Shown here piece after piece: positions 10,176-58,380 of a DNA stretch of 64,000 nucleotides; position 1 is the first letter of the stretch; each line of letters begins with the position of its first letter. The notes beneath the pieces are model-generated. The model was not told the origin of the DNA, did not search any database, and saw nothing but the letters and a program-made list of their open reading frames with translations. Source of the DNA: Fistulifera solaris. Its lineage: Eukaryota; Bacillariophyta; Bacillariophyceae; Naviculales; Stauroneidaceae. The stretch spans positions 186,001 through 250,000 of the forward strand of contig AP026131.1 of assembly GCA_030295235.1 (NCBI GenBank). The letters are read 5' to 3'. The position numbers and the translations under genes are program-made.

Positions 10176-12881
10176 TGTTTTATTATTTCAAGCTTTCGCA
10201 ACACGTCTGCACAAATAGAATGTTTTATGTGCAAATACAATTCCTTTTACAACAAATATAAACGAAACAGCGAAGATAAATTCATTCATCGACCCTTTTG
10301 TCGCATCTTCTTCAAATAAATACAGTACTACTTCATCACGCCTCATAAATACTAAAGGGTTAAGGATATAATCGTGGTTTAGGGTGTGCGTTCTACTACC
10401 GGTACTCTAATAAGAAGCACTCTCTAAGTGCCTGTGTGACATCGGACGAAAAGGTGCGCCATGGCGCCAAACAACGCAACAACACACAACATGCGACGCA
10501 AAAAGCCAAGCACCGTAAACCTTACCAGTACATGGAAATCGACATGTCCCGTCTTCTTCTTGTAGAAAGTATTGAACGCTGTTGCTTTTAATATGTCTCA
10601 TCGATTGTGCGCCAAAGTCACCGTAAATGACAGTGAGTGTGGGGGAGAGAAAATACGACAAAAGAGGAAGTGCTAGTTTAATTCGAGTTCGCCCGCTGAT
10701 GCGAACCGACGATCAAGGCTTCGAGTGCATCTATCATCAGATCTCTTGAATAATCTCGATCGGCTTGTCTCAGTATTCTTCGACAGTGAGACTTGGTCGT
10801 CCTGATCTCAATCAAAGATGTGCGTAACGAACATTCTGTAGACACCGTGACGACATTGCATCATGGGATGCCAACAAGAAGAAGAGGCGCTTGCTTCATG
10901 TTTTTGCGAACCCTTGATACTCGACCCGACCACTGTTGTAATCCCTATACCATAGACTGAGCGCGATCGGTTCTGTTATAAAGGCGTCACTCGACGCTGA
11001 ATGTGGCGAAGAACGAGTCGGTCCTCCAAACATGCAACGCAAAATCGGGAAAAACAATCTGCTGAGAGCTGTGAGAGAGATTCCTCTATATTCTATATCA
11101 CAAACCTTACACAGTCATTGTCTTAAATGCTATCGGTCATTCGGTGCCTTAGAGTGAGGGAGAGATGAAAACACGAGTCTGGAGTCGCGATTCGGGCTAC
11201 AAGATTCATATGACAACGAAACTTCAAAGACTTCATGGAAAATGTGTAGAAGATAGTGGATTCATAACGCTCATAATCGTTGAAACCTGGTGGGTGGTGG
11301 CGCTTCGATGACGGGTGAACATGCATCGACAGCAAATTACGACCGCTTTGTTTGGTATTGAAGCATCATAAACAAGCAGACATTAGCACAGAAGCTAAAC
11401 TAGCAACATGTCACACCAGGGCGTCGGAGTCAAAGGAAAAGATAACCAAGATTAGGGGGCTATTTGAGATCGAGATCGCTTTCATCGATGCAATCAAAAG
11501 ATGATTAAAAATCGTAGCACTGCTTCTCTACAAACATTCTTGAAATTAGCTAATCGTGCTGCGCGTTCTTCGTCCCCATCCGTTACCTGGTATGATGTAT
11601 GATGTGTGATGTGTGATGTACGATGTACTCGTAAATTTCTCAGTACGAAATTCTTGTTTAAGGCAGTACATTTACTATCAATTGGACCTTAGACCTTAGA
11701 CCTTAAACAGCGTTTTCACGTTTTCACTTTTCACTTACAATGTTGCAATGTTACAATGTTACAATGTTGCGGATTACGAAGTCTTTGTCTTTGGTCTTTC
11801 TTCTTACGACTTAAGACTTGAAATCAATGACTGCACACTGCGCACGATCACGTCCTGGGTCCTGGGTCCTGGAGAATGGAGACTCTAAGACCTAAGACTC
11901 TAGAGTCTAGAGACTTCAGACGTCTAGAGAGACTAGAGACAGAGACTCTTTGTACCAGGTACCATGATGAATGCTGAATGCTGAATGCTCATGTTGTTTA
12001 CGGTTTGTTGTGGAGAGAAAGACGCCAGATGATGATCTTCGAACTTTATTTACAGTACTCTGCCTTCGATATTAGGTCAGAACCAGGAAAGGACGTTAAA
12101 ATTCTGCCTCTCAGTACAAATTTCTACGTAGAGCCTACGGCGAGGCAGAATTTTAACGTCGTTTCCAGTAGAGTCATTGGTCATTGGTGCATTGCTTTTT
12201 GCAAGGGGAAATCAGTTGCTCTTTACATCGAAGATCGAAGAAGCAGAACGCAGAACGCAGAACTCGAAGTTAGGTTGTCCAATTTCAAATAATACAAACA
12301 GTAAAATAGGCACTCTACGATGATAAGTAGTGACTTTCACCTGATGACCGCAAACCGCAAACCTAGTCTCTAGACTCTAGAGACTCTAGAGACTAAATCA
12401 TGCTTCTTCACTTTGTTGATGCGTTCTGTTCTTTATTTTCGCTGTAAGGGAACACACGCCAAACGTGCCATTATTTGTACTTGGGAATCGAGCCTCCAGC
12501 ATCCAACATCCACTATCGAATCTCTCTTAGAAACAAAGGTCTAATGAGTGTGCAATAGCAAGAAGCAGGACCCACAAACGTTGTCAAGTTCCCAGTTCCC
12601 GATCCATAACAAACAATTCGGTTGTACATTTTCATTACAAGATGCAGGATGTACGATGTAAGATACTGTAAATCAATTATCAATTTGTCGATGTGTGATT
12701 AACAGTTCGTCCAAAAGAACACACTCGACTTCGAAATGACTTGTGTCACTTGCCACCCACCATTCCGCAAGATCCGAACCATTGAACCTCTGCTCACATA
12801 AAAGCGAACTGATGCACATTCGACCAAAGAGACGGCGATCAACCACAAAATACTAACGTTATCAAATCGCAAACAAAGGAA
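10176..12881. other. 2.7-kb intergenic region with simple direct repeats
   Basis: No open frame here looks like a protein. Between 11580 and 12000 short words are repeated next to each other with small changes: GATGT units at 11590-11630, CCTTAGA at 11690-11705, ACAATGTT at 11738-11770, CCTGGGT at 11862-11878, CTAGAGT/AGACT words at 11884-11948 and GAATGCT at 11968-11990. This looks like repeated replication slippage. TACCTGGTA-type palindromes stand at 11584 and 11953. The 81-nt hairpin element is listed separately. Confidence 0.6.
12086..12166. repeat. 81-nt hairpin element, copy A
   Basis: Two 25-nt arms pair with one mismatch around the core GACGTTAAAATTCTGCCTC (12092-12110 and its complement 12142-12160). 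The ~31-nt loop contains the small palindrome CTACGTAG and a second short stem. A nearly identical copy lies 46 kb away at 58292-58372, in the same orientation and with the same loop. It is a candidate miniature inverted-repeat element or a structured RNA. No target-site duplication is evident at this copy. Confidence 0.85.
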
Positions 12882-13589
12882 ATGCTATCCTTTCAAGAAA
12901 ACCAAGCTGCGATCTATCAGCTCCTGTTGAGCGACATGAGTAAGACGGCGACGCTCACGCTACAGGAAGTCGAGAAGACACGCATCACGTCATATGAGTT
13001 CGACGATGAGCCCATTCCTTTGAATTGTTCTGACCTTTCTCTTTCCCTTGAGCCACAAACGTCTTGGACTGAGTCTCCTGCATCCGGTCGTCATCTTTTT
13101 CAGTCAAGTAATCATCAACGCGGTGAAAGCGTGATGTCTGAAGCTTCCAACGGAAATCACTGTAAAGTCAAAAGCATTGACGAGTTGTTCCCATTGTGTC
13201 GAAGAAGCTTGGCCACTGCATCAGCCTGTTGCGGTCCGAATGAACACGATATAGTGTGCTCTCGAGGAAAAGTCTTTTATAAACTTCCCGGTAATATTCG
13301 ATTTCGCGAAGCCATCCGAGCCTATATGCCCAAGTATATGAAGGCTACAAGTAAAATGGACAAGTCACTCATCATCGATAACATCCTTGACATTACAGTG
13401 ACCGTAGACGCCTTCGGCAGACCGTCTCGATTCTTGAAGTATCACTCACAAACCAGGTCATGGAGTGTCATGGGGCATGATCAAGTTCGCGATAAAGTGG
13501 GTCATGCACTTCGAGAGGCGGTGTACGATATGGAACGAGAAAGGAAGATGAAGGCCGTTATTGATGCGAGGAAAATGACACAATGGTAA
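12882..13589 (+). CDS. DUF6824-type diatom protein, paralogue 1
   Basis: A 235-residue single-exon protein. The C-terminal ~115 residues hold the conserved block GPNEHDIVCSRGKVF, LPGNIRFREAIRAYMPKY, SKMDKSLIIDNILD and HDQVRDKVGHALREAVYD. This is the domain I know as DUF6824, much expanded in diatoms and often beside transcription-factor-like regions; its biochemical role is unknown to me. The N-terminal half is Ser-rich and not conserved with paralogue 2. Paralogue 2 starts about 1.1 kb downstream on the same strand with the same block, which points to tandem duplication. An HSF-like nucleic-acid-binding role is only a guess. Confidence 0.85.
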   Translation: MLSFQENQAAIYQLLLSDMSKTATLTLQEVEKTRITSYEFDDEPIPLNCSDLSLSLEPQTSWTESPASGRHLFQSSNHQRGESVMSEASNGNHCKVKSIDELFPLCRRSLATASACCGPNEHDIVCSRGKVFYKLPGNIRFREAIRAYMPKYMKATSKMDKSLIIDNILDITVTVDAFGRPSRFLKYHSQTRSWSVMGHDQVRDKVGHALREAVYDMERERKMKAVIDARKMTQW

Positions 13590-13917
13590 GTAGAAACTTT
13601 CACGTTTCCTTGCTGTGAGCTGTGACTCTTCCGGCCAAATACTCGACAATTATATGTTCCCACGATAAAAATAATATGTGCTCTCTGTCATTGTAAGAAA
13701 TAAGTCTTTCGTAGTTCATCCCAATAACTTATTATTCGTACCCGAGTCCTCGCGGTGCAAACACTGATGATATATTTGCGTTCAGCAATGACGAAGATCA
13801 TCATCATCCATCAGCCATCAGTCATCTCAGTCATCAGTCATCAGTCATCAATCGTTATTACCAGTACCAGTACCAGTACGATGTAACAAGTCCAAGAACA
13901 ATAGAACAAGTATTTAT

Positions 13918-14309
13918 TTGGAATTACGGATTCCTGATCATACAGAAAATCTGCGGTGGTCCAGAATTCTGGACCAGTTGTTTCGATCCCACCGAGATGC
14001 TGTTTACATTACGAAACGCCCGGACACGTTGCTTGGGAGCATGACGAAAGAAAGTGCAAATCCTAAAAATTCAGGACACGATGTTTTGGATCATGACGAA
14101 AGAAAGTGCGAATTCCAGAAATTCTGGAATTTGGAATCACGTATTTCTGGTCATACAGAAAATCTGTTGTAGTCCAGAAATTCTGGACCAGTTGTTTCGA
14201 TCCCACCGAAATGCTGTTCACATTCCGAAACGTCCGGACACGTTGCTTGGGTTCATGACGAAAGAAAGTGCAAATTTCAAAAATTCAGGACACGATGTTT
14301 TGGATCATG
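13918..14309. repeat. 213-bp tandem repeat, two copies, with CCAGAATTCTGG palindromes
   Basis: TTGGAATYAC at 13918 and at 14131, and TCATACAGAAAATCTG at 13938 and 14151, give a period of 213 bp over 1.8 copies. Each unit carries TCCAGAA(A)TTCTGGACCAG, the palindrome that also founds the 210-bp array at 26.35 kb, plus the block GTCCGGACACGTTGCTTGG. The repeat fills the gap between the two DUF6824-type paralogues. Upstream at 13795-13875 lie simple CATCAGT and CCAGTA repeats. Confidence 0.8.
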
Positions 14310-14655
14310 AAAAGCGGGACAGTGGACAGTGAACAGTGACATAGGTCTTTGCTTCTTTGAGGCTAACCAGGAAAAAATTTGTACGATTTTGGTGTGTGCA
14401 ATGACTCAGCCAGGTCAACACGTATGGACTATAGTGTACACAAAGACTCGGAGAAATAGGATTTTTTCATGGAACGAAGTCTATCTGTTCTTCCCCTTCG
14501 GTTTGGTGTACTAAGTATCAAAGAAAATCGATGACGAATGCCCGAATTCCGAAATCCAAAGCCACACTGAGTTGACGCGGACTGATGTTCCAGAAAACGA
14601 AGAGTTCATTATTTTCCATGAAAGAAATTGGCTCAAACCGATAATCATTCTTTTA

Positions 14656-15446
14656 ATGCCTCCTTATCAAGAAACGATGCATTCCGCCCAAAGTAACGCG
14701 ACTTTCTTTCAACTGCGTTTGCTGAAGGTGATCAACAGCAAATCCTCGCTTTCCGACAACAGCACACTCTACTCCAGCGCTCCTCACGATCAGGTAGGAA
14801 ATAGAGATCTCCCATCACCAAATTGCTTTCCTTTTCGTTCATTCGAGACATTGGCAGTTCGTGCGGAGCAAACACCCATTGCCGGTTCACCTTTTTCGTC
14901 CACGAACCAATATTTCACCCCTTCAAAAGAAAGCAAGGCGTTCAACACGTTCGACGAGTCCACGTTGCTTGGATCAATAATGAAAAATTATACCAGCGAG
15001 GTCAGAGCGAGTGAAATGCCGAAGCGAGCCAGTTCGTTGCATCAACCCTCGGCAGTCGCTACCACAAGTTCCTCATCGTCGGCATCCTTTCCTTACGGTC
15101 CGAACGAACATGATGTCGTGTGCTCTCGAGGAAAAGTTTTTACAGTCTCCCTGGTAACGTTCGCTTTCGAAACACGATCCGCTGTTATATTCCTGTATAT
15201 CTGGCCGCATCAAGTAAGATGGACAAGTCGGCCGTCATTGATAAAATTGTCGACAACGCCTTGAATGCTACCAACGCTCCTACTCGTTTCATGAAATATC
15301 ACTCCCGAACTTGCACGTGGAGCATTATGGGACACGATCAAGTTCGCGATAAGGTGGGGCATGCCCTTCGAGAAGCGATTTATGAAATGGAACGGAACAA
15401 CAAGTCAAAGAATATCAGCGCACGGAAAAAACTAGCCAAGTGGTAA
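14656..15446 (+). CDS. DUF6824-type diatom protein, paralogue 2
   Basis: About 263 residues when a one-base break is bridged. The N-terminal ~160 residues are Ser/Thr-rich. The domain follows: GPNEHDVVCSRGKVF, then in the next frame YSLPGNVRFRNTIRCYIP, SKMDKSAVIDKIVD and HDQVRDKVGHALREAIYE, ending KKLAKW against KMTQW in paralogue 1. The break is at a five-T run (15137-15141); six T restores GKVFYSLPGN exactly as in the paralogue, and total length becomes a multiple of three. The start is the first ATG; 28 further codons exist only from a TTG, and the ATG at 14677 is also possible. Confidence 0.8.
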
Positions 15447-15863
15447 ATGCACCTGATTCCTTCCCAATTTTAATGATCCCTTTGAGACTATAAAGTTCAT
15501 AGCACTTTGAAGATATATTTCATAAATCGAAGATGATACTACGAGTTGTTGATGCATAGAAGCATGAAGCGTGCAACAACGACAATAAAAAATACGTACA
15601 ATAACCTTACCTGGTACCAGGTACAGTACAAAGCAAACCGAACAGCGGAAAAAAGAAGTTCGGTTAAGGTTTGGGAATAGCCGTTAACCTTAGAGAAACT
15701 TCTTGCACCTTTTTTGCGTTGCATTAGTCTATTTATTTGCGTTTTTATTATTTGCGGTCGCCACTGTCACAATTGATTGACAATGACAATCAAATAAATA
15801 CTCCGTAAACGATAATCTACTTGTAAGTCCCTCTTCTACATTGGGACTTCTTCGACGTATACA
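15447..15863. other. intergenic, overlapping TACCTGGTACCAGGTA palindromes
   Basis: A 417-bp gap. TACCTGGTACCAGGTA at 15608-15623 is a perfect 16-nt palindrome made of two overlapping copies of the window's recurrent motif. ATACTCCGTA, another recurrent word, stands at 15798-15807, about 60 bp before the aminoacylase start. No gene seen. Confidence 0.55.
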
Positions 15864-17324
15864 ATGTCGACCGACAAGCTTTCAGCTGTTGCAAAAGAAG
15901 CCGCAATTCAATCCTTTGTAGAATTCATTCGCTTCCCCACAGTCTCTTCAACCGGCCCGGAAACCGGATCTTACCGCGATTGCGCCAACTGGCTCAAAGA
16001 CCGTTTGCAATTCTTGGATGAAGTCTTTTTCTTGGAGGACGCTCCGGATCATTCTCCCGTAGTCGTCGCACGCTGGAAAGGTCGAGACGATACTCTGCCC
16101 GTGTTGCTCCTCAATTCACATTATGACGTGGTCCCCGCAGAACCGAGCGATTGGTCGGTTCCTCCCTTTGAAGGCCTACGGAAAGAGAAAATGGGGTCTC
16201 CAGTGATCTACGGAAGAGGTACACAGGTACGATCGCTATTGCAAAGAAGCTGAGATTTAGAATCTATTCCGCCTCTCAGTATTCTCTCTTTTCGCGTAGG
16301 ACATGAAATGCGTGTGTATTCAATACATCGAAGCAGTTGCCCATCTAAAAGCCGAAGGATTACAACCAGCACGTGACGTTTATTTGACATTTGTGCCAGA
16401 TGAAGGTATGTCGCTTTACCCACGAAATTGTACGCGTTGTCGATCATTCTTCTCACTTTTTCTTTCGAAACAGAAATCGGAGGCTCTGGCATGGCCGCTT
16501 TTCTAGATTCAGCGCTCTACAAATCATTACCAGGCATTGCATTAGCATTAGATGAAGGATTGGCTAGTACGACAGATGTATTTTCTGTATTTTACGGTGA
16601 ACGATTGCCGTGGTGGGTGGAGGTAACGGCTCGTGGCCCTACCGGACATGGGAGTCGTTTCATTGAGAACACGGCGGTTGGTCAGTTACTGGAGTTTGCA
16701 CAAAAGGCGATGGAATTTCGTTCGGGTCAAAGATCGCTGCTCGGTTTAGATGAGCATTCCAACTGCGCCCATGCGGCAGCGAAAAAGACGCTAGGGGATG
16801 TAACATCCCTTAACATTACAACATTGCAGGCGGGAGTCAAGGCGGGAAATTCGTATGCTTACAATTGCGTTCCACCGGTGGCTACATGCAGTTTAGATAT
16901 CCGCATTTCGCCGCACATGGATCCTCAATCAATGGGCTCGTTACTCGATCAATGGTGCTTGGAATGTGGAACTGTAGAATGGAACTATATCGGCGGCCAA
17001 GGCAATCAATCGACAACACACGCTGTTACGTCGACTGTTTCAAATCCATGGTATGATGTGTTTGCTAGCAGTTTGCAGAAAAGAGGCTACCAGGTGGAAC
17101 CGTCTGTCTTTCCCGCAGCAACTGACTCGCGCTTCTTGCGTGCGCTCGGCATCCGCGCGTTGGGTTTCTCTCCTATGCGAAACACTGAAATCAAACTGCA
17201 CGAGGTCGATGAGTATATTCCTGAACATGCCTTTTTGGAAGGCATTGAAGTGTTTATAGGTCTCCTTCGAGACTTGATGTCTCAGGGCAAGGATATGGAG
17301 GAAAAGATCAAGGAATCTCCATGA
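15864..17324 (+). CDS. ACY1: aminoacylase-1 (N-acyl-L-amino-acid amidohydrolase, M20 family)
   Basis: Hydrolyses N-acyl, mainly N-acetyl, amino acids in the cytosol. Three exons (15864-16226, 16300-16405, 16474-17324) with introns of 73 and 68 bp keep phase and give 439 residues; the animal enzyme has about 408. [11 protein letters not shown] carries the first zinc histidine and its aspartate. [18 protein letters not shown] across intron 1 holds the bridging aspartate, and FVPDE|IGG across intron 2 has the catalytic glutamate. TGHGSRF is the dimerisation-domain histidine region. [17 protein letters not shown] and LHEVDEYI match the ACY1 C-terminus including the last zinc histidine. No signal peptide is seen. 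A complete, apparently intact gene. Confidence 0.95.
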
Positions 17325-17602
17325 TCGCTGTCTGCGAACGCTGCTCTCGAACTATACCGTTAAACCACTTGCTATCGACTTAAAGCCGGATAAATCGATC
17401 GTTCCTCGCCCAAACTTAATCTCTCGCTACACTTAAATCTTTTCCGTACAGGAAATTACCATTATTTCGGAGTCATACGAATATCATTATTTCGTCATGG
17501 TACCTGGTAGTCGTGCTTTTATCACCGTGGGGGTCAATTCCAGAATAGATGCGTTACCAGCAAATCTGGTTGTGGGGTGTGGCAATTACGTTTTGATTCA
17601 TA

Positions 17603-18064
17603 ACTCATGACTGAAATGCAGTCGTGGTCTCCCTGAACCATCACTTTGGGTCCATAGTAAATATGGACAACAGCGTTTCGCAAGGCTCTTTAACGAAAAA
17701 TTTATTGGCGTGTAATGCAAACGCTGCTAAAGCCTTTTGCAATGGAACAGTTACAAACGGAGCTCAAGAAAACTTGCTGAACCACGAATTGTCGGTAACA
17801 TTGTCGCTTGGAGAATATTAATTCATTTTTGAATACCAATTGTGGCGAGATACGGACAACACTATAGTCTATAGTGAAACGTGGAGGACAAAGGTTTGCA
17901 AGCTTTTCGATGTAAAATTAACAATACGTGTGATGGAAACGCTACCAAAGCCTATCTTATTGTAGCAGAGACAAATGGAGCTTAAGAAATCGGGCGAACG
18001 AACAACTGGTAGGCAGCATTGTCGCTCGAAAGAATATTTATCCATGACTGAATTGCGGTCTTGG
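17603..18064 (+). repeat. two tandem ~220-bp modules of the ATGACTG palindrome family
   Basis: The module starts with the palindrome ACTCATGACTGAAATGCAGT (from 17603), followed by CACTTTGG-GTCCATAGTAAAT, a body with GCAAACGCTGCTAAAGCC, CAAACGGAGCTCAAGAAA and AACATTGTCGCTTGGAGAAT. A second, diverged body follows at 17860-18030 (GGAAACGCTACCAAAGCC, GCATTGTCGCTCGAAAGAAT) and ends with a second palindrome at 18041. The reverse complement of this unit forms the 23.4-kb repeat. The remaining 17325-18355 holds TACCTGGTA at 17501 and ATACTCCGTA at 18239. Confidence 0.8.
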
Positions 18065-18355
18065 ATAAGTTGGGGTTTACATGCGAGGCAGACGGAATTG
18101 CTGAATGATTGTCTTGGAGTGTGTGGTGATTTCACGTTCCCTGAAAATCTGGTTCTTTGTTGTTTCTCACGCAATCAGGGGATGCGGAGCTTTTTCACCT
18201 TCACTATCTATCGTCCACTCATTTGAGAATAAAATAATATACTCCGTAACAATTACGAAGCAATTCAGTAAACGTAACAATAAACGTCAATTGAATCAGG
18301 CAATAAAAACCGGCGCAATAAGGGCAGTAAACAACTTTTGACGCATTGATTTCCG

Positions 18356-20080
18356 ATGAACGCCGACTCCTCGGCTCATTCTTTCTCCGCTAAATCTGCC
18401 TCGCAAACGCTGGCAAAATCACACCGAGGGCCTAAACCACGCTCTCAAAGAAATCGGAAACGTACTCGTCCAGATGTGAACGAGGAAGCCATGCAAAATC
18501 TTCGGTTTGAAGTCGAGCACCTTTCCGGCAAGCAGTGGCTTTTACATCTCCGTCCTTACCCCTACACATTCGAAAGCTTTGCAAAGTCACGCTGGGTAGG
18601 CCGCACAATATTAGACGTCTACACCGATGAATTTAAGAGTTATCCGCGCTCGTATTACAAGGAAGCGATACAACAGGGTCGTATTCAGATCATTCACAAA
18701 GATTGCCCCAGTCCAGTGACCGTTACTTGCGATTACGAAATCCAAGGGTCAGATGTCCTCGCACACACGGTGCATCGACATGAGCCATCCATTATGATTC
18801 ACAACAATCAAAGTCCCTTCATTTCTATAGTTGGCGAGACAGAGGACATCTTGGCAGTCGATAAGCCCGCCACTCTACCGGTCCATCCTTGCGGGGGATA
18901 TCATCAGAACTCGCTGATTCCGTTACTGGAAAGGACGTTGTACAATGAGAAAGACGACAACAAAAATTTATTCACTATTCACCGACTCGATCGGCTCACC
19001 AGCGGTTTGGTTATATTGGCAAAGAGAAGTCAAGTGGCTCGAACATGGACCCAGGCAATCTTAAAGCGCGAGGCGTGTACGAAATTGTATCTGGCCAGAG
19101 TTAAAGGAAGGTTTCCTTCAAACTTGAATCTTCCGAGAATAACTACCGATCCTCCAGTGAACGGAGAGTGGATGTCGCATGTATGCGATGGATCCGTTCA
19201 ATCGCTACGCAAGCGCTTTGCGCACAGCTATTGGATTACTTTACAATCGTCGAATACAGAAAAGTGTACTGCTCTGAGTGACATGTCGCTGGATGAGTTT
19301 TGTGTTACATCGAATGACGTAGAAAGCTGGCTAGCGTTCCTCTCGTGCTCGGATTCATCGTCGGATAGCACCCGCAAGATGCCTTGGCTTCACGTGGCCT
19401 GTCCAGTACGTGTTGTCAATTTCAAGGACGGAGGATGCGAAAGCGGGACATTCGATCATGTGGAAGACGATCTATACCGTCGTAATGTCAAACCCGCACA
19501 AACATCGTTTGCGGTGATTCGCTACGATGCCGAATCGGATTCGACGATTGTTCTTTGTCGTCCCAGTACGGGACGAACGCATCAGATTCGATTACATTTA
19601 CAAGCCACCGGGCATCCGATTGCCAACGACCCGAACTATGGTGGTGAAATATGGTACGGGAATCCCGAAGGCAAGAAGTTGTGCGATATGGCACAAAAGG
19701 AACTCGATGAAGCTGGTATAACAGCACTAGACGAACCGTTGGACTCGGACGAAGCGTTTCAAAACAGTGACGCAAGCAACACACTTTATCAAACAAAATG
19801 CCTTTCCACCAAAGACGTCCCCGCAACGGACGTGGAAGTAGAAGAAATGGCCCGTGCAGTACCTCGTGACGAAATGAACGAATCTTTAGAAGAATTCATG
19901 AAGAGAACGTGCGTTTGGTGTGCGCGATGTCGGGGACAGTCACTTACGAAACGATCTCGCCTCGAGTTTCTGGTACGTAGTCAAGGGATCTGGCTCCATG
20001 CTTTGCAGTATGAGATTCGAATCGAAGGCGTAGCAACCGCATTTCGCACACAAGTCCCTTCCTGGTGTCTTTTTACATAG
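18356..20080 (+). CDS. RluA-family RNA pseudouridine synthase (PUS9/RIB2-like)
   Basis: A 574-residue single-exon enzyme that isomerises uridine in RNA, probably tRNA position 32. An S4-like N-terminal part with RPYPYTFESFAKSRWVGRTI and YYKEAIQQGRI is characteristic of the eukaryotic Pus8/Pus9/RPUSD2 branch. The catalytic domain has VDKPATLPVHPCGGYH, HRLDRLTSG with the catalytic aspartate at about 212, KLYLARVKG, and RPSTGRTHQIRLHLQATGHP. The C-terminus has a Cys pair (CVWCARC) and is unlike bacterial RluA. A gene shift or intron is not needed. Mitochondrial or cytosolic location cannot be told. Confidence 0.92.
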   Translation: MNADSSAHSFSAKSASQTLAKSHRGPKPRSQRNRKRTRPDVNEEAMQNLRFEVEHLSGKQWLLHLRPYPYTFESFAKSRWVGRTILDVYTDEFKSYPRSYYKEAIQQGRIQIIHKDCPSPVTVTCDYEIQGSDVLAHTVHRHEPSIMIHNNQSPFISIVGETEDILAVDKPATLPVHPCGGYHQNSLIPLLERTLYNEKDDNKNLFTIHRLDRLTSGLVILAKRSQVARTWTQAILKREACTKLYLARVKGRFPSNLNLPRITTDPPVNGEWMSHVCDGSVQSLRKRFAHSYWITLQSSNTEKCTALSDMSLDEFCVTSNDVESWLAFLSCSDSSSDSTRKMPWLHVACPVRVVNFKDGGCESGTFDHVEDDLYRRNVKPAQTSFAVIRYDAESDSTIVLCRPSTGRTHQIRLHLQATGHPIANDPNYGGEIWYGNPEGKKLCDMAQKELDEAGITALDEPLDSDEAFQNSDASNTLYQTKCLSTKDVPATDVEVEEMARAVPRDEMNESLEEFMKRTCVWCARCRGQSLTKRSRLEFLVRSQGIWLHALQYEIRIEGVATAFRTQVPSWCLFT

Positions 20081-20350
20081 ATTCTTTGATAAATGTGGTG
20101 CGGGTCTGTCGCAAGAGGCTGTGCTAAAACAAATTAGAAGAGACGACTTGATCATGGTAAAGACTAAAGCTATTTATGATTATATTTATTTATATACATT
20201 TCTATTAAAGAGGAATCGATCATCGATTCAAGATAACCGAAGGTACTTGAATCATCGCGGAACCTCGCGAGGAGAGTCAAAATACGAATGTGAAGTATGA
20301 TAAAATGCACGATGCTTGTGACGAACAAGCCATTTCAAAAAGAACAGTCT

Positions 20351-23274: not shown

Positions 23275-23339
23275 GCAAAAGTTCTTTGTATAGGACGCAA
23301 AGTGAGTGGGAATAACAGAGTTACAGATTTTCCGACTGA

Positions 23340-43261: not shown

Positions 43262-43469
43262 AATTTTTTGGCCTGCGAAATAATGATACGCTAAAGAGAA
43301 AACTCTGAATTGAATCTAATCTTTCTTTTAGAATGTGTTTGACTAAAAAAAGAGGTCTACAATAGATTGTCAACACCGATCAACTTCATCGCATCATCGC
43401 AAATGTTTTCGTTTTCTCCACTTTTCTTATATAAGGGAACATATATTAATGATAGTTAGTTTGGTATAG

Positions 43470-43583
43470 GAACGACCATACTACGATGACAGCACCGCTT
43501 CCCGTCTGCTCAGCGAAGTTAAGCATCGTCAGGCCCGGTTAGTACTACGGTGGGGGACCACGTTGGAATCCCGGGTGTTGTTC
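43470..43583 (+). rRNA. 5S ribosomal RNA
   Basis: About 114 nt that match eukaryotic 5S rRNA: CCATACTACG near the 5' end, CGAAGTTAAGCATCGTCAGG (helix II/III loop and internal control region), GGTTAGTACTACGGTGGGGG, and CCCGGGTGTTGTTC closing helix I against GAACGAC at the start. A T-rich run (TTCTTTTGTTTCTTTT) directly after is a pol III terminator. It stands alone between protein genes, not in an rDNA array. Exact ends may differ by a few bases. Confidence 0.93.
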
Positions 43584-43888
43584 TTTTGTTTCTTTTGAAA
43601 CTCAGCTCTTTTCTCAGCTCGAATCTATTGGCAATTGGAGCTAGTGACTACTCGATGGTTTTGTTCGAGGCAAAGACGGCACTTAATTGATCGCTTGGCT
43701 GCAGCTAATCCATCTAAACTATCCCAGTTGAGTTTACTGCTTTTTAGTGAGATTGAATATACGTGCTCTATAAAAGTTGTCTTTAGTGTCTACTGCGTGT
43801 CGCTTTTTGTTTCCAGAAAATGTTTGATGGTATACATAGGATGATATGAAATAAATTGCATGTCACAACATGCGTCATTTGCGTTCAG
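43584..43888. other. 5S downstream flank
   Basis: 305 bp after the 5S gene. Apart from the T-rich terminator at its start, no gene or repeat is recognised; a 69-codon plus-strand frame at 43635 lacks protein character. Confidence 0.5.
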
Positions 43889-44649: not shown

Positions 44650-46841
<2,192 letters not shown>

Positions 46842-46878
46842 ATGCAATATTGTTACAAATCGGATGTGTTCTATAGAG

Positions 46879-48465: not shown

Positions 48466-49061
48466 TTCGCAATCCAATCGTCTATTTTTCTAAGCAAAAT
48501 TATAAGAAATGCGTATGCGAATGAGCTTGAAGGATAAGAAGTAACGACATGATGAATAATAAATAACTAAGTGTAATGGCAAATGGCGGTCTCGTCTTGT
48601 CACGAAAATCGCGTGCCTTTTCTTTCGGCTTTCACAAAAATACTGGTAATGGGAAGTTGTAGTCGTCATAGTGCTAAATGTACTGTTTAATACGTAGGAA
48701 AGACAACGCAGAAGAACTCTGGGCACGTTCTGCGACACGTGACACTACAGTAAAGCTGATACATATCCCACCCGGCCCATTGTGAACTTTATGGTTGTAC
48801 GTAAGAATGACCTAATGACTAGCATTTCACACTGTACAGCAATGACCGATTTTAAAAGATGATGACGAATGACGAGGCTTCTGCATTCTGCAATCTGCGG
48901 ATTATCCAGTTCCTTAATGTGAAAGCATTCGTCTTGAAGTTTTGCGGGTTAAAAATTCCATGTCGCAGACGCAGAAAAAACAAAACGCGCGTCGTCGAGA
49001 GATGAAATCGTCAACTGTTCCTATTATTTCCTCTGCTTTGTTTAATTAACAAAGAACAGAA
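48466..49061. promoter_or_regulatory. divergent promoter region, 0.6 kb
   Basis: Region between the divergent MFS and GNAT genes. No gene seen and no repeat member. Both promoters should lie here; I can name no element with confidence. Confidence 0.4.
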
Positions 49062-50666
49062 ATGCATACGGCTCCTACTGATAATGCGGAACGCGCCTTG
49101 CGAAGAAGAGTGACGAGAAGGCGGAATTTCGACGCAGCATCGAGAAAGGAAGCGTCTCTTGACAAACGATCCGCTGTTCGGTATTCTAGCAGAGCATTCG
49201 GTCTTCTCCTCAGTATTCTTTTCATTCCGACTTGTGCGAGCTTTGGAATATTCACTCCGGTTGGCCGTTCGTGTTCTCGTAGAATCCACACTTCCATGGC
49301 GACTGTCGAAGAAATCACTACAAAGGATGAACAAATACAAATTCTTCGAAATCTTACTGCATCGAGAGAATTTACTGATACAAAAATTGTGAATGATTCA
49401 ACAGATGACACAGCCTTAGAGGAAAAGGAGCATCCTGAAAGCCAAGACGACGCCGACGATGCAACACAGCAAGCTAGCAGCGGCGACACTAGTGCCGATG
49501 CACGTTCGGAAGATAATGAAATGGAGACACGGCGAAAGGAATTGGTGAAAGCAAATCTCCTCGGTCGAGGAAGTTCTACTTCGCGCTCCAAAAATCAATA
49601 CAAGGATACGAGTGTCGGGGCAAGGCGGATCGGGAGTGCTACAAAGGCACGTCAAAGTGCCACTGCTCCTAGCAGAGTCATGGATTCGCTTTGGAAAACA
49701 GCATCAGCCAAATCGAAAAATAAACAAGAGGAAACATCAACTGATGACAGAACTACGGATGGCACTACTCTGAGTTCTTCTGCAAATTCCGTGCAATCGC
49801 TGACTCGCTCCGCTATCATGAACGCGGTAGAGGAAGCGCTTTCGGATCGCAAACCGAAACGCGTAAATGGGCCCGTGCTCGTCAAGTCGAACCTGACCGC
49901 TGCTGATTTCACGCTTGCATACGAGCGTCCCATGGGGTTAGTAGTGGAGGATAAGGAAAACGACCGGCGAAGTGCAACCTTCGATTGTCCGGGTGCCATT
50001 GTTGCTCGCCCGACTTTAAACAACAATCTACTGGTGCGAATTGCCACTCCCACTGATGACTTTCAAATAGCTGCCCTGCGGCTATCCGTCTTCTCTGACT
50101 TTACTGCAGAACAACAGGGAAAATTCTGCGAACGTTCTTGCCAGGCAATCTCCAGTAGACGACTCCGGGGAGCACGTTGTCTGATTGCCGCTCATCAAAA
50201 TGACACAGAAACAGTTTTAGGAAGTGCCGAATGCAGTTATCATGAATTCTTTGGGACACGTCTTGGGCAACGAAGACAACAGTTTTCCATACTGTACGTT
50301 ACTGAAGTTGCAGTCGACATTGATGCCCGAGGACAAGGAATTGGGAAGAAGCTTATGGATGCTGTCGATATTTATGCAAAGTCTCGTAATATAGAGACCA
50401 TTTACCTTCATGTGGATGTCGAAAACAAAGCAGCTCTTTCTCTTTACGCCAAATCGGGATATGAACGCGTGAATGGTGAAGAAGACTCGATGTATTTGGA
50501 ATTTACTACTTCACTTCATTTACATCCTGGTGCTACCAAAGGAAGGGATCACTATTTAATGTACAAAAATCTCATACCAGACCCTGTTTGGCTCGAGCCT
50601 AAGGAACTGTCAATGAATCAGGGGGTCGAAACGAAAGGGAAACTGGGTTTCGAAGTCTCTCTGTAG
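49062..50666 (+). CDS. GNAT-family N-acetyltransferase, probably plastid-targeted
   Basis: A 534-residue single-exon protein. A basic start is followed by a hydrophobic segment (FGLLLSILFIPTCAS then FGIFTP), a signal-anchor or presequence with F after AS as in diatom plastid proteins. Residues ~90-310 are charged and disordered. The GNAT domain lies at ~325-500: LVRIATPTDDFQIAALRLSV, YVTEVAVDIDARGQGIGKKL with the acetyl-CoA loop RGQGIG near 422, and YLHVDVENKAALSLYAKSGY. ARGQGIGKKLM and LYxKxGYE are standard GNAT features. Plastid GNATs acetylate N-termini and lysines of photosystem proteins; the substrate here is inferred at most. Confidence 0.87.
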   Translation: MHTAPTDNAERALRRRVTRRRNFDAASRKEASLDKRSAVRYSSRAFGLLLSILFIPTCASFGIFTPVGRSCSRRIHTSMATVEEITTKDEQIQILRNLTASREFTDTKIVNDSTDDTALEEKEHPESQDDADDATQQASSGDTSADARSEDNEMETRRKELVKANLLGRGSSTSRSKNQYKDTSVGARRIGSATKARQSATAPSRVMDSLWKTASAKSKNKQEETSTDDRTTDGTTLSSSANSVQSLTRSAIMNAVEEALSDRKPKRVNGPVLVKSNLTAADFTLAYERPMGLVVEDKENDRRSATFDCPGAIVARPTLNNNLLVRIATPTDDFQIAALRLSVFSDFTAEQQGKFCERSCQAISSRRLRGARCLIAAHQNDTETVLGSAECSYHEFFGTRLGQRRQQFSILYVTEVAVDIDARGQGIGKKLMDAVDIYAKSRNIETIYLHVDVENKAALSLYAKSGYERVNGEEDSMYLEFTTSLHLHPGATKGRDHYLMYKNLIPDPVWLEPKELSMNQGVETKGKLGFEVSL

Positions 50667-51062
50667 TCTATGTTATCATCGTCTTTCTAGCACAAACGAG
50701 CAACTTAACTTGTATTTTAAGTTTGAATTTATCCATTGTTTCGGTCATCATTCATAATGTGAAAATGGTCGACCTAGCTAAAAGCTAAAAGTATCGAGCG
50801 ACCGTCTGTGCGACGTCCGTTCTTACACGTAGCACGTAGCGTAATGCTTCGTGGAGGAGACTACTCATTGAACGATAGTTGCGTACTGGTTTCCCGCGCT
50901 CAGTTCTTTTCTTGTTGGAGAACGGAGCGCGCCGTGTTCTGTCGGTCCATCCTGCAAAGCAAGACATCCGTCATTTCCTTCAACAAAACGAACAAAATAC
51001 GACCTTATACAAAGGAAACGCCTATCTATCACTTGAATTCACAACATTAATTTATTTAAATC
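50667..51062. other. intergenic, nothing recognised
   Basis: 396 bp between two genes on the plus strand. Small frames at 50808-51070 have no protein character. It probably holds the promoter and 5' UTR of the CNOT4 gene. Confidence 0.45.
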
Positions 51063-53426
51063 ATGGATGATGTAAGTAGAGATGAAACGGCTGGGAAAGG
51101 AACGCCGCCTAAAAGGTTTTTGGGGGTTTTCGTGCTAGTCCTCCGTGCACCCGTCGAAGCGTGAAAAAACACTTGATTTAATCTCTCTCACAAATTCAAT
51201 CTTTTCTTACTTCCTCTTTAATTATAAATAGGCCGATCACGTATGCCCTCTTTGTTGCGAGGAGTTAGATTTATCCGATCGCGAGTTTTATCCTTGCAAA
51301 TGCGGCTATCAAGTATGTATGTGGTGCTGGCACCGCATTCGGGAGTCCGAGTCAGGTCTTTGCCCTGCGTGCCGGACACCTTACGGAGAGGATCCGCATC
51401 AGTTCTCAGCTGTCGATGTTGAAGATGTTTTGAAGGCGAATAAGGCGAGAGATGCGGCTTTGAAGCGACAAAAACAGCAAGAAGGAGGAATGTTATCGGC
51501 GAGTCAACACGATGGGGTACCGAACAGTATTGTCACCGAGGATGGATCGAATGTGGCAATGGAAGTACCAAAGGATAGAAGTCAGCTAGCAAACATGCGT
51601 GTCATTCGGCGAAATTTGGTGTATGCGGTCGGACTGCCAGCAAGTATTGCAAGTGAGGACGTTTTGCGTAAACCCGAGTATTTTGGCCAGTACGGGAAGA
51701 TTGCCAAGATTGTTATAAACCGTGCTATTTCAGGTGAGCCTGGACGACGCGCATCTGCGAGTGCTTACGTTACTTTTGTGCATAAAGAGGATACGTTGGC
51801 TTGCATTCTAGCATTGGATGGGTTTTATCTTGACAATCGAAACATCCGTGCATCATATGGTACTTCCAAATACTGCTCGGCCTTTATTAAGAGCGTACGA
51901 TGTAATAACCCAGAATGTACTTACTTGCACGAGATGGGAGCAGCAGAAGATACGTTCACAAAACAGGAAATCCAGGCTGGCTATGTGACGAGCGGCCGCG
52001 ATGTTTTGGCTCGCCAGCAGCAGATTGTCTCTGAACAGTTGCGTCTTAACGCTACAAGTGCGGTTCCTCGTAAGCGTGTTGGCGGTGGCGGGCCGTCTGG
52101 AACAGGGCGGGCATCCTCTTCTCCCGTTTTCCCTCCTCCTGAATTCGACGAGGCGCCCAAGCCGAATCCCGTCCTTTACCTCCTCCTTCAGGAGGAGTGG
52201 CACGTGCTGCCACGGCTGGTACTTTCAGCTTGAATCCTTCAAATATTTCAGCCAAACTCGGGAGGTCTGCTTCTACTGGAAATCCTAGTCCCACGTTGGG
52301 AGCAACTGCGGTGCCTGCGAGCGCCGCTGCTGTAGTAGTGCCGCGGGTCAACAAGTCTGCCGCAGCTGTTGTTGCAGGTGTCCACACAGTCAAAGTGGAA
52401 GATTCCCCGCTTCACACTACGCTTACACCGCTCACGCCTTTGAAGCGCGCACCGAAGCCAACGAAAAGTACCGCGAATGCGCCTGTGCCTGATGATCCGA
52501 AGCTTCCCTCGATGCGTGTCGGCAAGACGAAAGGAAACGGTATCCGCAATGCTGTGTTTGGTGGCTCAGCTAATTCGTCGGTGACAAACGAAGAGGTCGA
52601 GCTTTCAACTGGGCCAGCCTCAATTGGCGGCGATGTAATTGCTGTCGGTAGTATACAGGCGGCACTACTCCCAGGCACTGTGCAGCTGAATAGTTCTACT
52701 GGCTTAGGTGGCGCCGAAGGAGGTTTGACGAGTGCTTTAGGCGGAGAAGTGTTTACCGGACCGCTAGCCAACAAGCCCATTAGCCGCGCAACGTCGGTAG
52801 ATAAGTGGAACTCTAATCAAATTCCCGGGGCGCCGGTGTACCCTGCTGCATCCGATCTTTGGAGCGGGATGAACGCCGGACCGGCTAATAGTAGTTCGGC
52901 ATTGGCATCGATCTTGGGCGTCGATCTCCCTACTGGTTCAGGATCACTTCGGGAGAATGCGAATATTTGGCCGTCGTCCAACCTTACTGGCCCCTCGTCT
53001 TTGTCGGCGCTCAACAGCAATAGTTCGGTTGGTGCAGCGTCAGGCAATGCTATTGGAGGCATTCCAATGAACATGAATAGCACATCGCTGATTGGAGGGG
53101 TCCCTATCGGAGGTGGCTCGATGGGTGGACAAGGTCACATAGGTGGCTTGTTGGGCTCATCTGCTCCCGGAAGCGGAAGCTATGGTGGCAAAAGCGACAT
53201 TGCTCTCCTCCAAAGCTTGTTGCCCGGCGTTCATATCACCAGCGGTAGCGAAGGGATGAATACCAGCGCTGGGGTTAACGGGTGGAATCAAGGCGGATCT
53301 AGTACACTTGGCGGCGATACCCTACTTGGATGGAACAGTGGCGCCGCTCCCAATCAACGTTCCTCCGTTGGTGCTATAGGACAAGGCAATGGGTCCCAAA
53401 CTCAGCGCCAGGGTCAGATTTGGTAG
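51063..53426 (+). CDS. CNOT4: CCR4-NOT subunit 4 (RING E3 ubiquitin ligase)
   Basis: A first exon of three codons (MDD) and a 160-bp intron (51072-51231) precede the main exon; about 734 residues after bridging one break. RING of the C4C4 type: CPLCCEELDLSDREFYPCKC, then YQVCMWCWHRI and GLCPACRTPYGEDP. An RRM follows (NLVYAVGLPASIASEDVLRK, YGKIAKIVINR, SASAYVTFV) and a CCCH finger (KYCSAFIKSVRCNNPECTYL, then H). This trio defines NOT4, which ubiquitinates stalled-ribosome proteins and links to mRNA decay. The C-terminal half is Gly/Ser/Asn-rich, low complexity. The break is at CCC 52156-52158; a fourth C leads from EFDEAP into QAESRPLPPPSGG, and gives 735 codons. Cytosolic. Confidence 0.93.
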
Positions 53427-53582
53427 ACAATAGTTACTGTCGCAAATTGGTAGTATGGAGGACAGAGAAACGAGTATGGGTGGTTTTCATTGACACTTTG
53501 ACAAGCGGTGAAATTTGGGTAGTTCGGACTTGACGGAATAGGTTGTAAACAGCGTAAGGGAAGTGGAATGATAATCCATGAA

Positions 53583-53662
53583 GAATGGATATGGCAATGG
53601 AAGGGTTTAGATGGAAATGGATATGGCAATGGATATGGCAATGGAAGGGCTTGGATGGAATG
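53583..53662. repeat. short tandem repeat of ATGGCAATGG-type units
   Basis: GGATATGGCAATGGA repeats with small changes three or four times in 80 bp, inside the 328-bp convergent gap between CNOT4 and NOC3. Likely slippage; no gene. Confidence 0.7.
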
Positions 53663-53754
53663 GAGAGATACGATGCTGCAGCATGAGTTTACAATTAAAT
53701 CACTAACTATTCTAGCAAAACAAATATTTGAATCGGCGGAGCTAATTGCTTTTA

Positions 53755-55544
53755 TTACAAGTCCCCTGTCACCAGTCGAGCCCGTTTACTTCTCGGGGTA
53801 ATGAACCGAGCATTGGCTCTCCCTTTTTTGCTGTTGGATTGTCCAAGTGGGTGTTTCTTTTTAACCCTAGCAAACTCGATCACCAAATTAGCTTGGTCGT
53901 AGTACTTCTCTGCTTTCAGTCGTTCTGGTCCTTCAGCAGGTAACTGGAGCATTTTCAATGTTGCGGCTGCTAGCGCTTGGTGGCTGACATCTTGCCGAAA
54001 ATGGAATTTCAATAGCGCCAACTCCCACGCAGAAGTTGAGAACGGATTACTATTTTCGGGGTCTAGAGCAAGAGGGTCGTATTCTCCAGCTGCAATGACA
54101 AAGTCTTCATCGTTTTCCAACAGTGGTTGTATAGCTGTATATCGCTGGAGCAGATTTCTGGCAAATGCAATGAGTGGTATCGATGATGCGGGGGTAAATG
54201 CAAAGCAACAGATGTGATTTGCTTGAAAAACGCGGCTACTCGAGCTGCAGAAAATTCCCGGCGCTTACAAAGCGCCGTATCCAGACATTTTAAGGTCAAA
54301 TCCAAAACATTTTGCGACCCTTCCTCATCAGTATCATGGAAAAAGCAAAGTCTTGGAAGTTGCGTGTACAATGGAAGAATGTATTCTTTGAGATCAATTT
54401 TGAGTTCCTTCCCTGGTCCTTGTAAAGTCTGAAATGCCGTCAGTATACAGTTCAAAGACGCGTCGAGAGGCAGAGTATCGACTTCTCGTAAAAGATCTTT
54501 CAGCACGGCCAACAGGTCCATCACGGTCTCCATGTTAATGAGATGCGCGAATTTCGCCAGCCCTTCTAAAGCAGCGCACAAAATATCATCCCTAGTAGAT
54601 TTTCGCGCCGAACTATTCGCACAACTTTTCAAGATTCGAAAGTAAGCCAAAATGACAACTTCTAAAGTCTGCGCTTGGCTTCTGGCAAGAACGGCTTTGT
54701 CAACAGTCGCTTCGCTCTCTTTCAATTCCGCCTCAATCGCTGCCGTCTCTTTATCCTTTTTCTTGTGACGTTTGCGAGACTGCTGTAACAGTTTCGCAGC
54801 GGTTGCTTCATCCGCATGCACTTTCAAAGGCAGCGCTGCAAACGATCGCACAACACGAGGACGAACAATGGGAGCGTTCTGAATGACCTTTGCCACCATT
54901 CGTGCGGCCTCTTCTGCTACCTGACCTTGCGCATCTTCTCGAAAGACAGTCTCGACGGCCTTGCAACACGCTTCTGCTACTACCGAGGAGATTCCTGTAT
55001 TCATATGTCTTACTACAGCAGCCAGCAAGTTCGAACGAAAATTGAACGTGTATGCCGTCGATAATAGCTCGCACAAGCTCAACATGCACGTGACTTGCAA
55101 CGAAGAAGGCGGACTCTGCGTAGACTGATTCCACTTCTTTTCCAAAACCTGCAGGTATTGCTGATAATGACTGAGTAAATTTCGTTCATACTCCCACGTC
55201 TGTTTGGTTTCCTTCGAAACAAGAACAGCACTCTCTTGTTCGGTCGGTAATCGGATGCGATAAGCTGGCAAAATATCTTTGAAGAGAGCCAGCAGTGAAA
55301 CGACCGCCAACTTTGCAACATATTCATCTTTGTGCTGCGTCAACGATAATAACTGGCTCATCTTTGAGGGACCCGCTGACGACCCGAAAGCTCCTTGTGG
55401 ATTTTCGAGAATTGATTCACTGAGTTCGGCAATCAAATCGCATATTTGAGCAACAGTCAGTTGATCCGGATTTCGGTAAGCTGGTTCAGCCTTTGTGGCT
55501 GGCGAGTTAGCTTCCTTGTCTTTGTTCCGTGATCGTCTGCCCAT
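53755..55544 (-). CDS. NOC3: nucleolar complex protein 3 (NOC3)
   Basis: About 596 residues after bridging one break. NOC3 acts with NOC2 in 60S pre-ribosome export, and in replication licensing in yeast. Residues ~30-130 carry the NOC3 N-terminal region (LTVAQICDLIAELSESILEN, DEYVAKLAVVSLLALFKDIL, PAYRIRLPT), then helical repeats and the C-terminal CBF/Mak21-type domain (LPLYTQLPRLCFFHDTDEEG and, after the break, ASSIPLIAFARNLLQRY, NPFSTSAWELALLKFH). The break is in a five-G run on the plus strand (54190-54194); six gives LPPASSIPL and 597 codons. It is shorter than most NOC3 proteins, which have a longer basic N-terminus. KRHKKKDK is a likely nuclear signal. Confidence 0.9.
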
Positions 55545-55728
55545 GATCTTAGTAATTGTGGGGAATATACGAGTATCGTTTGATGATGGCGACTGTTGTT
55601 GTTTTGAGAAAAATGATAGTCATGGTTCATGGTCGCTTTTTTTCATTGGTGGAAGGACGAGATACTGACTGATGGAGGCCAGACGTTTTCTCAATACTGT
55701 AATCCACACTAAAATATTACTCCGGGGT

Positions 55729-56640
55729 ACTCCGTTTCATAGTGAATATTCAAGCTGTCGATCCTCGGATTTTCGACGTGCAAAATAAAAGAAACTCTTA
55801 GCAAGTACTTCAGAATCATCATTGTTGCGACTTTGTTTACCCGTAATTATAGTTATTTTCGCAGTTGAATGACAAGGGACGGATGCGAGAGACGCAAAAC
55901 GGAACCCTTTGTTGTTCGGTTCATGACTCATGACTACTGTACATTCCAGTCTTGGCTGGCGTAAACTGACACTCCGTTTCATAGTGGAAATTCGAGGTGT
56001 CGATCCTCGGATTTGCGACGTGAAAATAAAAAGAAACTCTTAGCAAGTACTTCAGAATCATCATTGTTGCGACTTTGTTTACCCGTAATTATAGTTATTT
56101 TCGCAGTTGAATGACAAGGGACGGATGCGAGAGACGCAAAACGGAACCCTTTGTTGTTCGGTTCATGACTCATGACTACTGTACATTCCAGTCTTGGCTG
56201 GCGTAAACTAACACTCCGTTTCATAGTGGAAATTCGAGGTGTCGATCCTCGGATTTGCGACGTAAAAATAAAAAGAAACTCTTAGCAAGTACTTCAGAAT
56301 CATCATTGTTGCGACTTAATTTACCCGTAATTATAATTATTTTCGCAGTTGAATGACAATGGACGGACGCGCGACGCCAAACGAAGCTCTTTGTTGTTCA
56401 GTTCATGACTACTGTATTATCAAGTCTTGGCTGGCGTAAACCAACACTCTCTTTTATAGTGAAAATTCGAGGTGTCGATCCTCGGATTTGCGACGTGAAA
56501 ATAAAAGAAACTCTTAACAAGTAGTACAGAATCATCATTGTTGCGACTTAATTTACCCGTTGTTATGATTATATTCGCAGTTGAATGACAATGGACGGAT
56601 GTGAGAGACGCAAAACGCGGAGTGCGGAACACACATAGTC
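55729..56640. repeat. 242-bp tandem repeat, ~3.8 copies
   Basis: ACTCCGTTTCATAGTG-like anchors at 55729, 55971, 56213 and 56446 give periods of 242, 242 and 233. Copies 1 and 2 are almost identical; 3 and 4 diverge. Each unit contains CTTAGCAAGTACTTCAGAAT, GACTTTGTTTACCCGTAATT, TTCATGACTCATGACTACTG and CAGTCTTGGCTGGCGTAAAC. The inner CATAGTG-GAAATTCGAGG resembles the CCATAGTAAAT word of the 220-bp family, so the families may be related. An ~81-codon frame repeats with the unit and is a by-product. An inverted copy lies beyond Rab5 at 58069. The rest of 55545-56876 has nothing named. Confidence 0.9.
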
Positions 56641-56876
56641 CGGCTACAGACAGACTCCATGGAGATTAAAGCTAAGGTAAAACCAAAACTAAAAAGTAAA
56701 TAAGTAAATTTTCTTCAATAATGGTGACTACGAATATCATCCTCCCCATTCCCCTGTTTCGTCATCGAAGCCTAGTCTGGATCTCTACCCACATGACTCA
56801 CCATAGTAGCTTCATGCTCACCTCAACACAATGCAGAAACAGTTAGCGGCAAACACCCACGCGAAAGAAAAGTTAT

Positions 56877-57746
<870 letters not shown>

Positions 57747-58068
57747 ATTAATAAAGTATCACTTAAGAAATTGAGTTGGATTGCTCGTTCGTAAGGTCGT
57801 TGCAAATAAGTTCTGTTTTATTGTTGACGGCGAGAACAAAAACTGCATGACTTCGAAAGAGCGCGTTCTTTTTTCGTTTTGCTGCATCGCCCAAGGAAAA
57901 ACGAGCTGGCGTTGCGAACACGCAGCAGTGCCAGTTGATGATTAGTATCTGTTGCGAAGTAGTCTCGTTAATTTACATTTAGCGAGTGAGAACCGTCACG
58001 ACAGCGAATTTACTATGACGATTCTGTAGGCAACACTTGTCTGTCTTGTGATAAGTGGATACTCCGTA

Positions 58069-58192
58069 TTAGTTTACGCCAGCCAAGACTGGATCGTACA
58101 GTAGTCATGAGTCATGAACCGAACAACAAAGGGTTCCGTTTTGCTTCTCTCGCATCCGTCCATTGTCATTCAACTGCGAAAATAACTATGAT
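58069..58192 (-). repeat. inverted partial copy of the 242-bp repeat
   Basis: AGTTTACGCCAGCCAAGACT, CAGTAGTCATGAGTCATGAA and GTCATTCAACTGCGAAAATA are reverse complements of parts of the 55.7-kb unit. With that array it frames the Rab5 gene. ATACTCCGTA directly precedes it at 58059-58068 and may be the element's end. Confidence 0.85.
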
Positions 58193-58283
58193 GATTACGA
58201 AAGCTTTGATTGCCAAAAGAGATTGTCTTTTGCATCGGATCATCATCACGACGGTATACTTTTCCGCCATACCTGGTACAGGC

Positions 58284-58380
58284 GTGAGCGGGGAGAGGAC
58301 GTTAAAATTCTACCTCTCAGTACAAATTTCTACGTAGCGCCTACGGCGAGGCAGAATTTTAACGTCGTTTCCGGTGAGCG
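58284..58380. repeat. 81-nt hairpin element, copy B, with 7-bp direct repeats
   Basis: Arms 58292-58316 and 58348-58372 pair like copy A at 12086, with only a few changes (for example GGAGAGG for GGAAAGG, CTACCTC for CTGCCTC). GTGAGCG stands on both sides (58284-58290 and 58374-58380) and looks like a target-site duplication. TACCTGGTA is at 58270. The element lies about 210 bp before the SWIRM gene start. Confidence 0.85.

Follow-up and report, generated by a model that had tools for sequence, protein, structure and literature searches.

How should two almost identical, self-complementary stretches of 81 nucleotides (nt), lying 46 kb apart on one contig of the diatom Fistulifera solaris, be explained? 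The DNA that holds them, referred to here as the window, comprises 64,000 nt (contig C9, positions 186001-250000) of a 51.7-Mb genome in 61 contigs. An original prediction, made from these letters, had presented the pair (copies A and B; Table 1) as either a recent mobile miniature element or a structured RNA under constraint. Our analysis leads us to conclude that the hairpins are very probably copies of a non-coding transposon resembling a miniature inverted-repeat transposable element (MITE), which was mobilised in trans into CNG targets and spread separately in two parental lineages. The mobile half of that proposal is supported by hundreds of copies, a target duplication anchored at the element ends and a clean paralogous empty site; the 46-kb spacing of the two copies is meaningless in itself.

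A dispersed palindromic family and its insertion site

Both near-palindromes are present as described, in the same orientation and with a near-identical loop. Their arms consist of GACGTTAAAATTCTGCCTC and its reverse complement, from which the left arm of copy B departs at one position, and the inverted arms extend over 31 nt with 19 nt between them, at 90% complementarity in copy A and 84% in copy B. Folded as DNA with short flanks, copy A reaches -27.4 kcal/mol, where shuffled sequences average -8.1 (z -8.8), and copy B, folded as RNA with short flanks, gives a z of -4.4. A genome-wide search for the unit, as the original prediction had proposed, uncovered hundreds of copies and not just two. 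Allowing up to one mismatch, the 19-nt arm produced 308 + 335 = 643 matches on the two strands and its backwards control 0 + 0, which puts the pair well outside chance; viral contigs had 0 matches. As one copy can yield two arm matches, we infer roughly 300-500 copies in the genome. The other 39 places scored on the query strand in a search with copy A are 94-100% identical.

From these hundreds, 97 copies were read with their flanks (L-numbers below denote individual fetched loci). Standard length was found in 93, which were analysed further (39 of subfamily A, 54 of subfamily B), and the 4 of non-standard length were excluded. Worn copies are under-represented among the 93, because copies were picked by similarity to the arms or the whole element. 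The copies are dispersed, with flanks that are unrelated from one to the next, and the subfamily majority sequences equal their own reverse complement at 60 of 81 positions. In subfamily A 29 of the 39 copies, and in subfamily B 39 of the 54, are 0-3 changes away from their subfamily majority, a similarity-found sample biased to young ones. The family combines several features of a MITE: a length of 81 bp, which leaves no room for a transposase gene, inverted arms, dispersed copies and a target-site duplication.

The bases directly outside the two ends agree in 70 of the 93 copies (shuffled mean 25.9, maximum 48 in 20,000 shuffles) and in 49 of the 55 with standard ends. Comparison of left-right position pairs in the first 55 copies gave a clear signal only at -1/+1 (z 8.6; next best 3.4). 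Among the 70 copies with the duplicated base, 48 display C-N-G on both sides, CNG having a background of 0.051 of window triplets, and the middle base N of the 70 is A in 27, T in 18, G in 13 and C in 12. Counted as triplets, the two sides carry the same CNG-style sequence in 47 of 93 copies (shuffled mean 14.3, maximum 25 in 5,000 shuffles). The arrangement C N [G...C] N G can be read in two ways, with an element of 79 bp between duplicated CNG triplets (3 bp) or with one of 81 bp between duplicated single N bases (1 bp) and a preference for CNG targets; the element starts with GGA in A and GGG in B on the 1-bp reading, and with GAA in A and GGA in B on the 3-bp reading. Copy A has a textbook CAG...CAG target. 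At copy B the duplicated base is shown only trivially, because of one extra G on the left. Locus L068 carries an apparent second insertion at a C-C-G formed by the right end of the first copy.

A duplication of one base, or of three if CNG is counted, replaces the 7 bp that had been predicted. As a candidate, the 7-bp target duplication was rejected: anchored identical words of 7 bases occur at two of the 93 copies, and words of 8 bases at one. The GTGAGCG said to frame copy B does flank it on both sides, but nothing similar occurs at copy A and the frame is not a family feature. Shared words of at least 7 bases within 15+15 flanking bases were detected in 7 of 93 copies (shuffled mean 0.84, maximum 4 in 300 shuffles), which is a genuine excess. 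By eye, GTACC-rich sequence accounts for three of these seven and A/G-rich sequence for another; the remaining three, copy B, L116 and L123, resemble split 7-bp tandem pairs. Exact pairs of this kind number 52 in the window against 2.8 expected from Markov shuffles (period 8, 8 vs 0.6; period 6, 34 vs 13.4). They cluster at 11590-12672, with others dispersed; 2 lie in long open reading frames, which take up 44% of the window, and the other 50 start outside them. Loci on C1 have 17 vs 2.4 in 45 kb and loci on C2 have 18 vs 1.4 in 45 kb. Because 7-bp tandem pairs are abundant here, we read the GTGAGCG pair as a single one split by insertion. A sharp period-7 duplication process is apparent as a separate property of this DNA.

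To identify empty sites, the joined flanks of the 97 copies were compared with the fetched loci and the window, and nine comparisons were judged. L102, a copy on C7, and its paralogue L069 on C14 provide a clean empty site, in which CCAAG-CAG-AGG corresponds to CAG-element-CAG. The comparison of L107 with its unoccupied paralogue in the window fits with one substitution (empty CTG; filled CAG on both sides), and that of L003 with its own tandem array (twice) and with a related window repeat (once) fits on the left, with bases lost on the right. L128 gives an imprecise fit, L011 is uninformative because it was aligned with its own sequence, and L115 is a copy within a copy, with no clean duplication. 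On C10, the homoeologous stretches contain neither copy A nor copy B (fewest arm mismatches 6 of 19). L016 (C1:1632652), with ragged ends, and L107 (C5:1754825) are inserted at an identical point of one repeat family but in reverse orientation to each other, which suggests either that the target is hot or that the palindrome has flipped.

Two loop types on two sets of contigs

F. solaris is an oil-rich allodiploid diatom. Contigs C9/C10 and C1/C2 are homoeologous, with ~81-93% identity in their main matched stretches, and the assembly therefore has an allodiploid layout. Two 23-mers from the apt homoeologues of F. solaris have been published (PMC13276009), and each was found once, one on C38 and one on C39. 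This identifies the host as F. solaris or a very close relative, and the original prediction was right to think of a diatom.

A loop-only search with up to one mismatch located type A at 109 places and type B at 103. Contigs were assigned, and the A and B contig sets defined, from 100 listed places per loop type. Each type occupies 22 contigs among its listed places, and only C6 and C13 are common to both. For type A, 99 of the 100 lie on contigs 1, 3, 5, 7, 9, 11, 13, 15, 17, 19, 21, 23, 25, 27, 30, 32, 34, 36, 40, 42 and 45, and C6:1353365 is the sole listed A place on a B-set contig. For type B, 99 of the 100 lie on contigs 2, 4, 6, 8, 10, 12, 14, 16, 18, 20, 22, 24, 26, 29, 31, 33, 35, 37, 39, 43 and 44, and one on C13. 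The pairs tested, C1/C2 and C9/C10, which are homoeologous by similarity, fall into opposite sets, as do C38 (with an A copy) and C39 (with a B loop), which both bear apt homoeologues; the family can therefore mark subgenomes. Most simply, the element would have multiplied within each parental lineage on its own and would have hardly moved since hybridization. The epithet 'recent' in the original prediction suits the closeness of most sampled copies to their subfamily majority, but the near absence of copies from the opposite contig set points to little movement after hybridization.

Among the 93 aligned copies, one of type B lies on an A-set contig (L014, on C1), and its homoeologous place on C2 has no element. 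L014 has a private GGAG ending in common with a B-like copy at C19:359137, and these two may therefore belong to an older third lineage. Wrong-set copies were accordingly rejected as proof of jumps after hybridization. The flanks of the B-type loop at C13:977388 are unrelated to those of the B copy at the nearest C14 coordinate, so this loop does not represent a simple local exchange with that copy.

The subgenomes of F. solaris were assigned indirectly in 2018, by GC ratio and codon usage, in a paper that discusses transposon relics as an alternative strategy needing a precise long-read assembly and that reports an exchange on chromosome 10 from GC ratio (PMC5935921). The family described here looks like such a relic, in that one 31-base loop tells the contig set of a copy, and the rare wrong-set loops point to exchange, movement between subgenomes or older lineages.

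On the molecular level, we propose that a DDE transposase supplied in trans would have recognised the terminal inverted repeats, which would have been cut and pasted into CNG with a 3-bp stagger, the usual reading in the PIF/Harbinger-like PHIS group (PIF/Harbinger-ISL2EU-Spy), or a 1-bp stagger. Separate spread in the two parental lineages would have given each subfamily, A and B, a chromosome set of its own, with little movement after hybridization, and the source transposase may have been lost or may simply not have been found.

Features of the window

Table 1. Positions of the two elements, their ends and one unoccupied paralogue within the window.
Feature	Position	Strand	Remark
Copy A, palindromic 81-bp MITE-like element	12086..12166	+	Subfamily A
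Copy A, left target triplet CAG	12084..12086		Duplicated base A at 12085; from sequence and family-wide statistics
Copy A, right target triplet CAG	12166..12168		Duplicated base A at 12167; from sequence and family-wide statistics
Copy A, left inverted arm (31 nt)	12086..12116	+	
Copy A, right inverted arm (31 nt)	12136..12166	-	
Copy B, second 81-bp element	58292..58372	+	Subfamily A by its A-type loop (C9:244317)
Copy B, left target side, C then GG	58289..58291		One G beyond the C-N-element rule
Copy B, right target triplet CGG	58372..58374		
Copy B, left inverted arm (31 nt)	58292..58322	+	
Copy B, right inverted arm (31 nt)	58342..58372	-	
GTGAGCG left of copy B	58284..58290	+	Read as half of a split 7-bp tandem pair
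GTGAGCG right of copy B	58374..58380	+	Other half of the same 7-bp tandem pair
Unoccupied paralogue (83%) of the repeat carrying the element at C5:1754825 (L107)	2581..2684	+	

The GC content of the window, 0.43-0.49 per 4 kb, is consistent with the 45% published for chromosome 1 of F. solaris (PMC5935921). Beside copy B lies a gene that by eye encodes a Rab5-like GTPase (56718-57927), inverted relative to C10:263012-264232. Copies of a 127-bp repeat, 81-96% alike, flank this gene in opposite orientations (55846-56447; 58066-58192), and recombination between them may therefore have flipped it. Copy B as the driver of this inversion was considered and rejected, given the longer inverted repeats on both sides of the gene. 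The stretches 55846-56618 and 58066-58192 belong to a repeat that is dispersed and locally tandem, its units ~240 bp apart, with 301 matches, most of those listed being on A-set contigs. At Rfam gathering scores, the sole match in the window is a single 5S rRNA gene (43468-43586, 101.6 bits).

Alternatives, the source transposase and known relatives

Several observations weigh against a MITE mobilised in trans into CNG. Identity of the flanking base is absent in 23 of the 93 copies, and the outermost 6+6 bases are more variable (0.068 in A, 0.100 in B) than the arms or the loop, unlike what is expected for ends bound by a transposase. Only one of the nine empty-site comparisons is clean, and the element-free homoeologous places of copies A and B align poorly. 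The outer C is absent in 14 of the 70 copies with a duplicated base, with the inner base still C in 11 of the 14, and the outer G is absent in 13, with the inner base still G in 11 of the 13, both of which misfit a plain 3-bp duplication. As for a source, 24 DDE_Tnp_4 matches were found in the genome, and the four loci inspected (~3.5 kb each, with ~1.5 kb to either side of the match) have no hairpin ends (best 9-10 mismatches in 25); nor did 26 arms with an altered continuation include a full-length relative. The sole close facing pair among these 26, on C11, has the spacing of an 81-bp copy, and three others (C7:722988, C31:180333 and C40:463064) lie within stretches read as ordinary copies. 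One arm, C7:119222-119242, faces a DDE_Tnp_4 relic (C7:118268-118693) ~530 bp away; it is a possible lead to the source but may equally belong to a normal copy that differs by a single change.

One of the four inspected loci is a PIF/Harbinger-type insertion at C10:213.5-215.6 kb (L084, 1521-3595), with a DDE_Tnp_4 gene and GGGCCTTTATTATCG-like ends beside TTA/TAA. This locus at C10:214 kb is a classical Harbinger, its GGGCC ends adjoining TTA/TAA, and it is absent from the chromosome of the window, between the equivalents of window positions 13724 and 14485.

Because the inner C or G is mostly retained in the off-target copies, these lean towards a 1-bp duplication. A transposase that truly duplicates one base, the middle one of a palindromic C-N-G, with the near-complete palindrome as its minimal substrate, is nevertheless improbable; we know of no described DNA transposon with a single-base stagger.

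Also improbable is a MITE of another superfamily with 2-4 bp duplications, such as CACTA, in place of a PHIS element. In its favour, the CMC group, which includes CACTA, duplicates 2-4 bp (PMC4482050), and target and ends are all that the superfamily placement draws on. Against it, CACTA ends begin with CACT(A/G), and the ends found here start with GGA or GGG; moreover, a palindromic triplet with a free middle base is the PHIS pattern (ANT, CWG and TNA, PMC4482050; also TWA).

The structured RNA of the original prediction, a non-coding RNA or regulatory hairpin held by selection at many sites, is very unlikely, having found support neither in the changes from copy to copy nor in Rfam. Arms do differ less (mismatch 0.011 in A, 0.016 in B) than loops (0.043, 0.031), both copies fold strongly, as DNA and as RNA respectively, and between A and B the two ends change in a matched way, from GGA/TCC to GGG/CCC. 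The low arm mismatch is exaggerated, however, because the arms served as the search key: both arms are exact in 5 of 15 copies on C1 and 6 of 14 on C3, from which we estimate by hand ~3% change per base, much as in the loop. Across 2,496 cells at paired positions there are 143 one-sided changes, 94 of them pair-breaking, against 5 two-sided changes, 4 of which still pair, and in subfamily B the right arm GCC disrupts a pair that A keeps. No Rfam family covers copy A or copy B at gathering scores, and a hairpin held by selection also sits poorly with the absence of both copies from the homoeologous stretches.

Recombination, gene conversion or segmental duplication could also have spread the hairpins passively, with no transposase involved. 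This would accommodate the few tandem or nested copies with unclean ends (L115, L131 and L055) and the shared position of L016 and L107 in opposite orientations, but it is very unlikely: flanks vary between copies, and yet 70 of 93 show a duplicated base next to the element.

We return to a PHIS-like MITE and its known relatives. Tourist-type MITEs (PIF/Harbinger) have the target TWA; like them, the family is short and non-coding, with inverted repeats, high copy number and a palindromic 3-bp target, and unlike them it uses CNG, is only 81 bp long and pairs with itself almost from end to end. Plant MITE duplications are A-T rich and 2-9 bp long (PMC12595863). Among the papers listed by searches on diatom MITEs or Fistulifera repeats, no title or displayed abstract describes the present element, most of the full texts having stayed unopened.

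Judged by the CNG target, the 31-nt arms and the GG(G/A) start, the nearest relatives would be the NuwaI group, CWG-target relatives of PIF/Harbinger, with membership unproven. NuwaI elements duplicate CWG and have inverted repeats of 12-61 bp that usually start with GGG; their autonomous form carries a DDE transposase and a Myb/SANT gene, and they were reported only from animals (PMC4482050). The family resembles them in a CNG target near CWG, in arms that fall within the 12-61 bp range and, on the 1-bp reading, in the GGG of subfamily B. It differs in that strict CWG does not hold (25 of 70 copies have C or G at N), subfamily A starts with GGA on that reading, neither a transposase nor, with no search aimed at it, a Myb gene is linked to it, and the host is a diatom. 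NuwaII, with the target C-TNA-G, presents a similar ambiguity, since neighbouring bases are fixed and a 3-bp or 5-bp duplication is undecided (PMC4482050); here the ambiguity is between 1 bp and 3 bp, and the target is CNG. If the placement is true, the CNG target would extend the PHIS-like target range to diatoms.

As a marker of parentage, the family finds its counterpart in the diagnostic transposon relics of allopolyploids (PMC10235133; the Xenopus laevis case cited in PMC5935921), where spread before hybridization likewise marks the parent. Unlike those relics, the marker here is one 81-bp family with two loop types, in a diatom.

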